DNA of 52,981 bases from an uncultured Hyphomicrobiales bacterium (GTDB lineage: Bacteria; Pseudomonadota; Alphaproteobacteria; Rhizobiales; Xanthobacteraceae), in NCBI GenBank assembly GCA_903885555.1, contig CAISIV010000320.1:1-52981 (forward strand), in the 5' to 3' direction. Position 1 is the first letter of the stretch. Each line of letters starts with the position of its first letter. The translations under genes were made by a program, and so were the position numbers. The notes beneath the pieces are model-generated. The model was given only the letters and a program-made list of their open reading frames with translations, had not been told where the DNA came from and made no database searches. This document shows, in pieces, positions 2,912-29,004 of this stretch.

Positions 2912-3835
2912 CTACTTCACGCCAAGGCTATCGATCAGCGCGTCGCCGAACTGGCGGCGCGCTTCGGCGTAGATCGGCTTGACCGCATTCCGGAACGCGC
3001 CGCGCTCGGCTTGCGTCAGATCGACAACGTCGCAGCCGGCCGCTTCAATGGCCTTGCGCGCGTCGATTTCCTCCTGCTCCGCGTAGTCCCGCTGCAGCGG
3101 GATCGCGGCCTTCACCGCGGCCCGCACGGCGTCCTGCAGATCCTTTGGCCATGAATCAAAACTCTGGCGATGCGCGGCGACGACACGCGACACATAGAAG
3201 TGGTTGGTCAGCGTATGGAACTTGTGCAATTTGTGCGCGCCGTAGGTCACCGTATTGGCCAGCGGATTTTCCTGGCCGTCGATCTCGCCGTTTTTCAGCG
3301 CGGCGATCAGCTTGGCGAGGCCGACATGCACCGGCTTTGCGCCGAGCAACTCGAAGGTGCGCGCCTGGATCGGGCTGTTGAGCGTGCGGATGCTCATGCC
3401 CTGGAAATCGGCGGGCGAACGCACCGGGCGGATGGAGTTTGAAATATGCCGGAAGCCGTTTTCGAAAAATCCGAGCACACGGCTGTTGGTCTTGGTTTCG
3501 ATCGCGGACGCCAGCAGCGCACCGAACGTGCCGTCGATCGCGGTGCGCGCCGCGGCCTCGTTTTGAAACAGAAACGGCAAATCGGCGAAACCGACATCCG
3601 GCATCAGGCCGCTGGTCGACTGGTAGCCGATCGACAGCGCGCCGCGCTCGACCAGCGACAGCACGTCCTCGGCGTTATAGCCGAGGTCCATGACGTTCCA
3701 GACATATTGGATATCGACGCGCGGACCGAATTGGACCTTGAGCTTGTCGCCAATGATCTTGAGCGCACGGCTGAAGGTGGTCGATGGCGGACCGTAGCCG
3801 CCGAGCCGGATCTGAATCACTTCGCCCATCATCAT
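2912..3835 (-). CDS. TRAP transporter DctP-like solute-binding protein without signal peptide
   Basis: About 307 residues with the DctP fold pattern: an early Y-G-P-P-S-T-T-F segment, G-Y-Q-S-T-S-G-L-M-P near residue 80, a central R-T-L-N-S-P-I-Q-A-R-T, then the family's N-G-E-I-D-G-Q-E-N-P motif. DctP proteins bind carboxylates for TRAP transporters. The ATG at 3835 overlaps the stop of the upstream paralogue by one base (TGATG), suggesting translational coupling; a GTG at 3847 is an alternative start. Neither start supplies a signal peptide, and no DctQ/DctM membrane genes are nearby. It may work in the cytoplasm, be exported unusually, or have lost its leader. Confidence 0.85.
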   Translation of the reverse strand: MMMGEVIQIRLGGYGPPSTTFSRALKIIGDKLKVQFGPRVDIQYVWNVMDLGYNAEDVLSLVERGALSIGYQSTSGLMPDVGFADLPFLFQNEAAARTAIDGTFGALLASAIETKTNSRVLGFFENGFRHISNSIRPVRSPADFQGMSIRTLNSPIQARTFELLGAKPVHVGLAKLIAALKNGEIDGQENPLANTVTYGAHKLHKFHTLTNHFYVSRVVAAHRQSFDSWPKDLQDAVRAAVKAAIPLQRDYAEQEEIDARKAIEAAGCDVVDLTQAERGAFRNAVKPIYAEARRQFGDALIDSLGVK

Positions 3836-4959
3836 CACTGGCCCCACTGAATCGGATCGGCGATGGCATCGACCATCAACTGATCCGGCGATTTGTTTTG
3901 GTATTTCTTCGTCAGTGTTTCGATGGCCGCGATCATACGCGCAGCGGGCCGCCCCGCACCCTCTTCGCTGGTAACGAAATTGCCGATCACCGGCGCGACA
4001 CGTTGCCTGATCTGCGCCCAGTCATTGGCGGAAAATTCGATGAATTCGCAACCGGCGGCGCGGAACTTGTCGCGGGCGCGTGCGCCTTCCAGCCCGTAGA
4101 ACACCTGGCATTCGGCCTGCGCCTCGGCGCGCAACCAGGCGTGCAGGATTTTCTGCAAGTCCCCCGGCAGGCTTTGCCAGAACGTCCTGCTCATGCCGAA
4201 TTCGGTGTTGTTGCGCACCAGTCCGAGCGAGGTGCGATAGCGCGCCTTGGTGCCGATGCCGAAGACTTCGGCCGGGCCGTCGGAAATGTGCATGGCGTCG
4301 AGTGCGCCGGAGGCAAAGGCCTCTTTCTTCTCCAGCGAACTGCCCGGCACCGGAATGGCGCCCAGCGCGCGGATCACATTGCCCTCGATGCCGTCATTGC
4401 CGCCGATACGCAGGCCCTGCAGATCGGCCAGCGTGCGGATCGGCTTCATGCTGAACAGATGAAAGGCGCTGGTCGCCTTCAACCGACCCATGACGATGCC
4501 CTGCTTCTCGACATCGGCGCGGAAGAAATCGGAATAGAGTTCTTCCGAAATCGCGGTGCCGATCTCGGCGCTGGCGAACAGGCCCGGCAGCCGCAGCCCC
4601 TGCACCAATGTGTAGGTCTCGTTGTCCCAGGCCGAGTAACACGGCGCGAAATCGGTGCGACCGTCCCGCAGCGCCGCCACGGCTTCGCGCTCGGCGTGCA
4701 CGCTTGCGCCCCAGCGGTCGTCGACGAGGATTTTGCCGCGCGTCATGCGCTCGAGAACCTTGAAGGCCGGCTTGAACACTTCGCGCACCACCGACGCGGT
4801 TTCGGGCGGATGCCCCGTGACCTTCATCGTGAACGGCGCGCCGGAATAGAGAACCGGCAGTGGGGAGACGTCGGCATATTGCCCCGTCAGCCAGTCACGC
4901 GCGACGCGGCAGCGCGCGTAGGCTTCCGCACTGTCGACATCATCACTGTTGCGGGACAT
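3835..4959 (-). CDS. TRAP DctP-like protein, divergent paralogue without signal peptide
   Basis: A 374-residue protein, similar in outline to DctP solute-binding proteins: an I-R-T-L-A-D-L-Q-G-L-R-I-G-G motif in the middle, then G-A-L-D-A-M-H-I-S-D-G-P. The N-terminus (MSRNSDDVDSAEAYARCR) is hydrophilic, with no export signal. The frame stays open upstream to 5607, but that part lies antisense to the Bug gene at 5047, so the ATG at 4959 is preferred. It is the first gene of a two-gene unit with the overlapping paralogue and is divergent from the Bug-amidohydrolase operon across an 87-bp gap that probably holds both promoters. Binding of a related carboxylate is inferred from context only. Confidence 0.78.
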   Translation of the reverse strand: MSRNSDDVDSAEAYARCRVARDWLTGQYADVSPLPVLYSGAPFTMKVTGHPPETASVVREVFKPAFKVLERMTRGKILVDDRWGASVHAEREAVAALRDGRTDFAPCYSAWDNETYTLVQGLRLPGLFASAEIGTAISEELYSDFFRADVEKQGIVMGRLKATSAFHLFSMKPIRTLADLQGLRIGGNDGIEGNVIRALGAIPVPGSSLEKKEAFASGALDAMHISDGPAEVFGIGTKARYRTSLGLVRNNTEFGMSRTFWQSLPGDLQKILHAWLRAEAQAECQVFYGLEGARARDKFRAAGCEFIEFSANDWAQIRQRVAPVIGNFVTSEEGAGRPAARMIAAIETLTKKYQNKSPDQLMVDAIADPIQWGQ

Positions 4960-25041: not shown

Positions 25042-27522
<2,481 letters not shown>

Positions 27523-27541: not shown

Positions 27542-27577
27542 CGGTACCGCGCGCGAAATTTTCGCGCGCTGGTGCCG
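27542..27577 (+). terminator. long hairpin after gyrB, probable terminator
   Basis: GCGCGCGAAA and TTTCGCGCGC form a 10-bp inner stem extended outward by CGGTACC/GGTGCCG with one wobble pair. T-rich sequence (AATTTTTA) follows seven bases later. It starts 20 bp after the gyrB stop. Confidence 0.65.
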
Positions 27578-27649
27578 CGTTGCAATTTTTACATCTTGCG
27601 GTTGTTTTAAAATAATTGCAACCTCCGGGCGTTCCGTCTGGGGGATGCC

Positions 27650-28804
27650 ATGAACACACGCCTGCGATTCTACGTAGCCATCGGCGCTGCGTTTCTATCG
27701 ACGACCGGCTTGGCTTTTGCCGATGCCTGCGACGATATCGTCAACGCCAGTAAACCGGTCGTGGCGGAAGCCGCCAACAAGCTTGCCTCGACGCCAGAGG
27801 GAAAATTGAAAATCGAACTTGGCGACATTGTCTCAGTAAAAGGCGAAAGATTCGAAAAGCTGTTCGACAAGGCTTGCGCAAACCGCAACATCATCCTGTT
27901 CCTGAACAACTGGCCGCTTACGGACGTCACACCGCTGCCACCGCTCGATCCGGCGCTTGGCGAGCTCAATTTCAAATTGGTCAACAAGCGGCACACCGAC
28001 GGCACCGACCCTTGGCAGCCAATCCTCGGCAGCCCCGGTCTGGCCGGGCTTCCCGTCACCGTCAGCATCGGCCTCGACAAGGGCTACGCGTTGCCGCCGA
28101 AAGGACCGAACCTGCCGAAATTGACGCTGACCGTCTTGCCGCCGGGATGGCTGATCGCGTGGCTCGTGATCTTCGCAGCCATGGTTTTTGTCTTCATATC
28201 TCTGGCGCGGAATACGACAATCATGCGGGACTCGGCGCCCAGCACCAACACCATGGGTCCCTACAGCCTGTCGCGGACACAGGGCGCGGTCTGGTTTTTC
28301 GCCATTCTGGCCGCGTACCTGTTCATCGGCATGATCACTGGCGACTTCTCGACATCGATAAACAGCACCGCGCTGACCTTGATGGGAATCGGCGCGGGCA
28401 CCGTCCTCGGTTCGGCTGTCATTGACGCGCAGAAGGATACCCCGGCACAGCGCAACGCCATTCAAGACGCGACGACAAAAGTTACGGGCGATATAAAAGT
28501 AGCGCCCACCGACGGCAGTGTGTCGAAGGATGAGCTGGACTCGCAGCTCAAAAAATTGCGAGGCGAAACGGAAGGCTTTTTTCGCGATATCGTGAGCGAT
28601 GCGAATGGCGTCAGCTTCCACCGCTTCCAGAACGCGGTTTGGACATTCGTCCTCGCTTTCATCTTTCTGATTTTGGTCTATCAAAACCTTGCAATGCCGG
28701 AGTTCAATACGACACTGCTTGGATTGCTCGGCTTGAGCGCGGGCACTTACCTCGGGCTTAAAATCCCCGAGCCTGTAACGCCGACGCGACCCGCACCGAA
28801 ATAA
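27650..28804 (+). CDS. unassigned membrane protein with internally duplicated transmembrane module
   Basis: A 384-residue protein with a Sec leader (residues 1-24, ending L-A-F-A-D-A). A mostly non-membrane part up to about 160 contains N-I-I-L-F-L-N-N-W-P-L. A membrane helix lies at about 166-185, followed by two related modules. Module A (205-259) and module B (322-372) both start R-x-Q-x-A-V-W-x-F, run through a hydrophobic helix and end with L-G-I/L-x-A-G-T-x-L-G. A hydrophilic linker (260-320) separates them. I do not recognise the family. It is alone between gyrB and the convergent UPF0391 gene. Codon use is a little less GC-biased than in gyrB. Confidence 0.7.
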   Translation: MNTRLRFYVAIGAAFLSTTGLAFADACDDIVNASKPVVAEAANKLASTPEGKLKIELGDIVSVKGERFEKLFDKACANRNIILFLNNWPLTDVTPLPPLDPALGELNFKLVNKRHTDGTDPWQPILGSPGLAGLPVTVSIGLDKGYALPPKGPNLPKLTLTVLPPGWLIAWLVIFAAMVFVFISLARNTTIMRDSAPSTNTMGPYSLSRTQGAVWFFAILAAYLFIGMITGDFSTSINSTALTLMGIGAGTVLGSAVIDAQKDTPAQRNAIQDATTKVTGDIKVAPTDGSVSKDELDSQLKKLRGETEGFFRDIVSDANGVSFHRFQNAVWTFVLAFIFLILVYQNLAMPEFNTTLLGLLGLSAGTYLGLKIPEPVTPTRPAPK

Positions 28805-28827: not shown

Positions 28828-29004
28828 CTACGACGTCAGCCTCGCCCCAATGGCGAGGCCGATGGCGATCGCGCCGAGGAACAGCACCAGGAAGATGCCG
28901 AACAGCCATTGCGCGATGGTGGCGGAGGCCTGCTCGACGCCGGAGAAGCCGAATATCCCGGCAACGATGGCGATCAGCAGAAAAATAAAGGCCCACTTCA
29001 ACAT
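28828..29004 (-). CDS. UPF0391 (DUF1328) small membrane protein
   Basis: A 58-residue protein reading MLKWAFIFLLIAIVAGIF and on to a C-terminal A-I-A-I-G-L-A-I-G-A-R-L-T-S. Two hydrophobic helices around residues 4-24 and 32-52 are joined by S-G-V-E-Q-A-S-A-T-I-A-Q-W, the DUF1328/UPF0391 pattern. The function of the family is unknown; members are often stress-induced in Proteobacteria. An excellent ribosome-binding site (GAAGGAG) precedes the ATG, and an EcfG-like promoter lies 37-61 bp upstream. Convergent with the membrane protein ending at 28804. Confidence 0.9.
   Translation of the reverse strand: MLKWAFIFLLIAIVAGIFGFSGVEQASATIAQWLFGIFLVLFLGAIAIGLAIGARLTS

Follow-up and report, generated by a model that had tools for sequence, protein, structure and literature searches.

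A gyrB-adjacent membrane protein with two homologous hairpin modules from a Hyphomicrobiales genome, and its unnamed family in which some members adjoin hydrolase genes

We found that a gene lying directly 3' of gyrB in the window, i.e., the whole 52,981-nucleotide stretch of Hyphomicrobiales DNA that was analysed, encodes a 384-amino-acid protein (the window protein) which, by alignment, contains two tandem homologous hairpin modules. It belongs to a family of inner-membrane proteins that has no name and whose members occur here and there in the phylum. The best explanation as a whole joins this membership, the anatomy listed below and a role as a scaffold coupled to a hydrolase; taken together, these are proposed tentatively, with somewhat less than even confidence, and the anatomy by itself is proposed with high confidence. 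The features are as follows, all on the + strand.

25045..27522, +: gyrB, the 5' neighbour of the window gene, given for context (ORF list)
27588..27616, +: promoter-like TTTACA-17-AATAAT, 5' of the window gene (consensus scan only)
27650..28804, +: twin-hairpin gene encoding the window protein, ATG start (ORF list)
27650..27724, +: leader, aa 1-25, signal-peptide-like, ending AFA/D (Kyte-Doolittle peak at aa 9-27, 2 K/R ahead)
27725..28144, +: domain at the N-terminus, aa 26-165, probably beta-rich and exported (alignment with relatives)
28145..28210, +: membrane helix 1, aa 166-187 (Kyte-Doolittle peak at 168-186, 2.81)
28262..28426, +: hairpin module 1, aa 205-259 (module alignments; Kyte-Doolittle peaks at 212-230 and 240-258)
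28427..28612, +: charged linker between the modules, aa 260-321 (length varies among relatives)
28613..28765, +: hairpin module 2, aa 322-372 (module alignments; Kyte-Doolittle peak at 329-347 only)

The two modules carry a matching pair of motifs, RTQGAVW...AGTVLG at aa 209-254 in copy 1 and RFQNAVW...AGTYLG at aa 325-369 in copy 2. A sequence-only reading of this DNA had quoted both motif sets and proposed an internal duplication; both sets are present, and the duplication was borne out, since BLASTP aligned 52 columns of the two copies at an identity of 35% (E 2e-5). The Smith-Waterman score between them was 79, and this value was reached by 0 of 5000 shuffles that preserved hydrophobicity class (maximum 60). 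In agreement, the profile-profile comparison of the two modules gave an hhalign probability of 98.5 and a score of 68.7 (20 aligned sequences), far above 100 class-preserving column shuffles included as controls (mean 12.5, sd 3.9, maximum 28.1). Chance or artefact as the origin of the duplication, or of the gene, was ruled out by the shuffles together with the purifying selection described below. Two parts of the proposal were modified: the AVW and AGTxLG portions of the motifs are restricted to the window's close relatives, and the repeated unit, although homologous as claimed, was read as a helix-loop-helix hairpin and not as a single helix. For copy 2, the Kyte-Doolittle scan (19-residue window size) showed no separate peak above 1.3 at the second helix. 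In 13 diverse cores, module 1 retains an invariant S and an invariant Q, and module 2 retains R, Q, G and Y.

Ahead of the modules, the leader and the N-terminal non-membrane domain described in the sequence-only reading were again recognized by the hydropathy scan and by the alignment with relatives; cleavage of the leader would take place after AFA. The N-terminal, or outer, domain could be aligned across nine members on the window's side of the tree, with two invariant columns, and it gave a weak profile match to chain 21nr_A, named TLP-IPT (E 0.053); the Pfam search of the window protein returned no IPT/TIG match. Beta strands in this domain were seen only in a very-low-confidence AlphaFold2 model. 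When run with two-sequence alignments, AlphaFold2 reached a pLDDT of 39.4 for the full protein and 43.0 for the membrane core, both too poor for use. A weak hydropathy peak at aa 124-142 (1.35) lies within the outer domain and probably is not a membrane helix. K and R are absent from the short loop in hairpin 1 but present in the segments on either side of it, and the linker region at aa 259-328 contains 10 K/R and 12 D/E. The charges of loop and flanks suggest that the hairpins enter the membrane from the cytoplasm. From these charges and the hydropathy, the predicted topology places the N-terminal domain outside and the C-terminus inside, with helix 1 running from outward to inward and both hairpins in the same orientation.

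The statement that the protein has no assigned function also stood, as the whole protein gave no match to a characterised family in Pfam, NCBIfam, PDB, PHROG or PADLOC, in profile or member-wise searches. The best Pfam and NCBIfam scores of the window protein were 12.7 bits (cut-off 25) and 11.7 bits (cut-off 67), respectively; the sequence search of the PDB with the window protein and the profile search found nothing above the cut-off, and PADLOC gave nothing in the window protein or in three other family members scanned. When 13 members were scanned singly against Pfam and NCBIfam, again nothing exceeded the cut-off, and each family listed appeared in one member only, the best being PF16463 (E 3.5e-4). 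The PHROG entry phrog_1177, annotated as of unknown function, was matched by the window protein (E 0.0071) and by 5 of 32 members (best E 6.2e-4). The family HMM recognized the window protein with an E of 7.2e-69, the protein itself being among the model's sequences; moreover, a profile of the one-module down genes described below, which was not trained on it, found module 2 at 28598-28753 with an E of 2.1e-9. The family's S-x-x-x-x-Q and R-x-Q at the module entries are present in the window protein, and so are its leader and N-terminal outer domain.

Among 60 genomes near the window, 7 had relatives, in the fused form in 5 and in the split form in 2. Within the family of the window the count was 10 of 149, within the order 4 of 199 (one-module profile), within the class 4 of 289 and within the phylum 13 of 398; another class gave 6 of 321, with two model seeds among the six. 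All genomes searched belong to this phylum, and the window's own genome, or seeds, are counted wherever a set contained them. The same two-hairpin core was found in plasmid proteins of Polymorphobacter sp. PAMC 29334, Rhizobium ruizarguesonis, Bradyrhizobium sp. 155, Caballeronia sp. SBC2 and Cupriavidus pinatubonensis. In one alignment, identity to the window core was 31% for Polymorphobacter, 38% for R. ruizarguesonis, whose protein has a long insertion ahead of module 1, and 22% for Cupriavidus. These plasmid proteins are annotated as hypothetical, that of Cupriavidus as Ig domain-containing. In Caballeronia and Cupriavidus, the twin-hairpin gene has on its 5' side a pair of small genes, of which the first encodes a lipoprotein-like leader (L056 2923-4337, L057 2000-3480). 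At another locus (L041 7945-10965), two adjacent look-alike proteins of ~490 aa are encoded on the same strand 5' of the G362 relative; the one scanned had no Pfam match over the cut-off.

The window gene is present as a single copy in its own genome, as found by genome search, and its start lies 127 bases past the end of gyrB (27522). Codon comparison gave dN/dS values of ~0.30, ~0.33 and ~0.39 against the relatives in genomes G013, G008 and G031, respectively, which argues that the gene is real and under purifying selection; the value against G011 was unusable, as dS was saturated. Because it has its own promoter-like site and the listed genes 3' of it are convergent to it, the data suggest a single-gene unit. 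One promoter-like site was found versus 0.6 expected in shuffles, which is no evidence of function. The small convergent ORF at window positions 28828-29004 on the - strand, translated by eye, reads like a DUF1328 membrane protein. Directly past gyrB, at window positions 27550-27569, there is a near-perfect palindrome, CGCGCGAAAT/TTTCGCGCGC, with no T run after it.

Besides the fused form, a split form was found at 8 loci (L019, L045, L053, L054, L083, L084, L085 and L086), where two adjacent same-strand genes encode one module each. That the up gene corresponds to module 1 and the down gene to module 2 was not supported by the profile scores at these loci: the module 2 profile gave the higher score for 8 of 8 up genes, and the module 1 profile for 7 of 8 down genes. 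A simple pairing of split and fused copies by their order therefore does not work. The next same-strand gene encodes a DNA/RNA non-specific endonuclease (Endonuclease_NS) in six of the eight: PF01223 was matched beside the pair in L045, L053, L084, L085 and G1098 (= L083), and the L054 nuclease was identified by phmmer only. Some of these loci are closely related, L053 and L054 belonging to the genus of the window, L083-L085 to its family and L045 to another family, and therefore they represent fewer than six independent events. As a base rate, 15 of the 149 genomes in the window's family have PF01223, at 16 places altogether, and 3 of the 16 places carry the gene pair. The nucleases of the split loci had leader-like starts when read by eye. 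The downstream nuclease is lacking at L019 and L086. Directly 3' of the pair in L086 (4510-6363), a 617-aa protein with no Pfam match takes the nuclease's usual place; 5' of the pair in L019 there is a lipoprotein and a helical gene, similar to L056 and L057 by appearance.

With the fused form, a lipase gene was located directly 3' in 4 of 33 two-module rows. Three of the lipases are Tle1-like, with PF09994 in L042 and L050 and DUF2235 (annotation and phmmer) in L055, and the fourth is a patatin, PF01734 (L087). Neither enzyme class adjoins the gene in the other 29 rows, the window's clade included, and L130 and L131 had no such enzyme adjoining. This neighbour survey covered relatives of seven lipase or nuclease queries, with some rows on short contigs and G011 read from its ORF list only. 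A patatin gene 3.8 kb off in L057 and cell-wall hydrolase genes nearby in L016 and L057 were left uncounted. In all 10 enzyme-linked loci, the enzyme is encoded 3' on the same strand with a gap of 65 bases or less, negative gap values being a product of the longest-ORF choice. In a tree of the 33 rows, the lipase-linked members were spread over three positions (G441 with Bradyrhizobium sp. 155; G572; G611), with G572 and G611 on long branches and the bootstrap not settled. The three rows that have a Tle1-like lipase resemble Tle1-like phospholipase (PF09994) cassettes in having the lipase gene directly 3' of the twin-hairpin gene. However, PF09994 is common in the window's family (55 of 149 genomes), and no module was found within ~1.5 kb of it at the 30 loci examined, the linked copy of G441 being outside these 30. 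The window's own genome gave 0 PF09994 matches in a search where the controls were silent and which was positive in those 55 relatives. Two Tle1-like proteins had no leader-like start when read by eye; because the nucleases do have one, a single mechanism for both enzymes is not obvious.

The duplication, the split form and the neighbour counts were observed directly, and the further steps of topology, packing and any contact with an enzyme are inferred. The two hairpins would pack as a pseudo-symmetric pair, formed by two subunits in the split form, and the pair could serve as a scaffold or regulator in the membrane, itself non-enzymatic, by which a hydrolase is held or gated there. An outer domain or a partner gene would set the state of the hairpins, and via the hairpins the outer domain would be coupled to the hydrolase, which might be held at, or released near, the membrane. 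The partner of the split form would be the exported nuclease, and that of some fused forms the Tle1-like or patatin lipase. As no enzyme gene lies beside the window copy, its partner, if any, would be elsewhere or lost. This mechanism is possible, and we hold it a shade less firmly than the explanation as a whole. The family is nameless in the libraries searched, its internal symmetry is clear and testable, and a conserved order of three genes links the split form with a single class of enzyme. An anonymous hypothetical protein can thus be turned into a concrete question, i.e., whether the hairpin pair binds, gates or releases the adjoining nuclease, and, if it does, orphan copies would be candidates for the same role.

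The location of the window copy raises a housekeeping function linked to gyrB in this genus. Close relatives in the genus showed identities to the window protein of 66% (G011), 57% (G013), 54% (G008) and 51% (G031). In favour of linkage, the gene is 3' of gyrB in the window's genome (G000), G031, G013 and G008, and in G011 it stands at the start of a short contig, with gyrB near the end of another. However, the gene is missing from most of the genus, being present in 5 of 36 same-genus genomes, the window's own included. Among 30 gyrB flanks in the genus, a set that did not include G008, the window-type gene was found in 3 (window included), 12 had an alpha/beta hydrolase or glutamine-synthetase-like neighbour with the twin-hairpin gene absent, and 15 had none of these genes within 1.5 kb or up to the contig end. 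The twin-hairpin gene is an accessory gene at the gyrB spot, and a gyrB-linked housekeeping function is very improbable. A part in anti-phage defence, as the effector of a Pycsar-type operon, was suggested by plasmid p155_1 of Bradyrhizobium sp. 155 (L055), where genes for an AAA ATPase, a cyclase, E2, the twin-hairpin protein and a DUF2235 lipase follow one another; here PADLOC identified the cyclase as PycC (E 1.1e-87) and the following gene as E2 (E 6.6e-53). Like the Pycsar effectors (PycTM), the family is thus represented by a membrane protein in a cyclase operon, once. The window protein differs from PycTM in having no Pfam domain, and the L055 cyclase (3210-3920) is truncated, with ~193 N-terminal residues missing when compared with Bradyrhizobium sp. 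192. On plasmid p192_1 of that related strain (L118 900-4325), cyclase, E2 and DUF2235 (Tle1-like) occur without the twin-hairpin gene, and the cyclase is 78% identical to a PADLOC PycC match. In three further cyclase loci, a Pycsar effector family protein was present in one, a TIR protein in another, and none was named in the third. No cyclase was noticed next to those of the other rows that were looked at, and the window gene is flanked by gyrB and convergent genes, with no PycC cyclase; the blank PADLOC results count against an effector as well. The L055 association is, as one locus, a lead and not a rule, and an effector role is improbable, a little less so than the gyrB linkage. It was observed that DUF2235 occupies the place of the Pycsar effector in L118; in the literature, as far as its text was accessible to full-text search, no work on Pycsar together with DUF2235 was found.

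Two other explanations start from the adjoining enzymes. The protein could be an immunity or antitoxin-like membrane protein that shields its own cell against the lipase or nuclease encoded beside it. The fixed order of the 10 linked loci, with the membrane gene 5' and the enzyme closely 3', is consistent with this, and Tle1-like and patatin enzymes attack membrane lipids. However, an exported nuclease is not obviously in need of a membrane-bound inhibitor with a conserved hairpin, and most fused rows, as counted above, have neither enzyme adjoining. Neither vgrG nor any other T6SS gene is listed for the annotated stretch of L055, which comes from the incomplete gene tables of PLSDB, and L042 and L050 were read by eye; at the window locus, the adjacent PF09994 gene of a T6SS lipase-immunity pair is absent. 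We consider immunity unlikely, and to the same degree a holin-like release module, where the hairpins would be derived from, or work like, phage 3-TM holins, opening or depolarising the membrane and releasing or activating the adjoining hydrolase, as in holin-based (type 10) secretion. In holin cassettes, small membrane proteins are followed by a soluble hydrolase, and the split form, with two small membrane proteins and then a soluble hydrolase, has a similar gene order. Two members matched PHROG 3427 (holin) with E values of 0.066 and 0.096, and the 3-TM holins of this group are likewise small membrane proteins whose last helix has a similar G-x-G-Y...K pattern. Using 17 rows gathered from 30 phrog_3427 loci and 40 shuffles per comparison, hhalign scored 25.3 with the profile of the down genes (shuffle maximum 19.3), 28.4 with that of the up genes (17.5) and 21.6 with module 2 (17.6). 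Nevertheless, the hhalign probabilities were only 17%, 33% and 15%, respectively, and the similarity is limited to 23-28 columns of the last helix; module 1 scored 16.7, with its shuffles reaching up to 16.6, and the two-module profile scored 17.3, with shuffles reaching up to 23.0. PHROG 3427 was matched by 2 of 32 members only, at an E of 0.066 or weaker, and the one-module proteins scanned had no Pfam match over the cut-off. Moreover, no relatives of the two family proteins tried were found among 50,697 phage records, and pattern and tblastn searches of viral contigs found no module relatives; a viral origin was rejected on these grounds. The holin likeness of the profiles is suggestive for the split genes, no more. 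A broader version would be a general bacterial membrane module, fused or split, for the delivery or gating of degradative enzymes (nuclease, Tle1-like lipase or patatin). The pair would then be a domesticated, holin-like one, distantly related to phage 3-TM holins and spread as an accessory cassette, and orphans like that of the window would have their partners at other places in the genome; this version is slightly less likely again than the holin-like or immunity explanations, and the scaffold or regulator coupled to a hydrolase is the reading we prefer.

The PHROG 3427 holins are presumably linked to the gene transfer agent (GTA); a full-text search, limited to the parts of the literature it opens, found no work on 3-TM holins together with gene transfer agents. 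The window's genome contains a PHROG 3427 holin-like gene of its own (G000:C229:42102-42410, E 9.4e-7), possibly part of a gene transfer agent or prophage.
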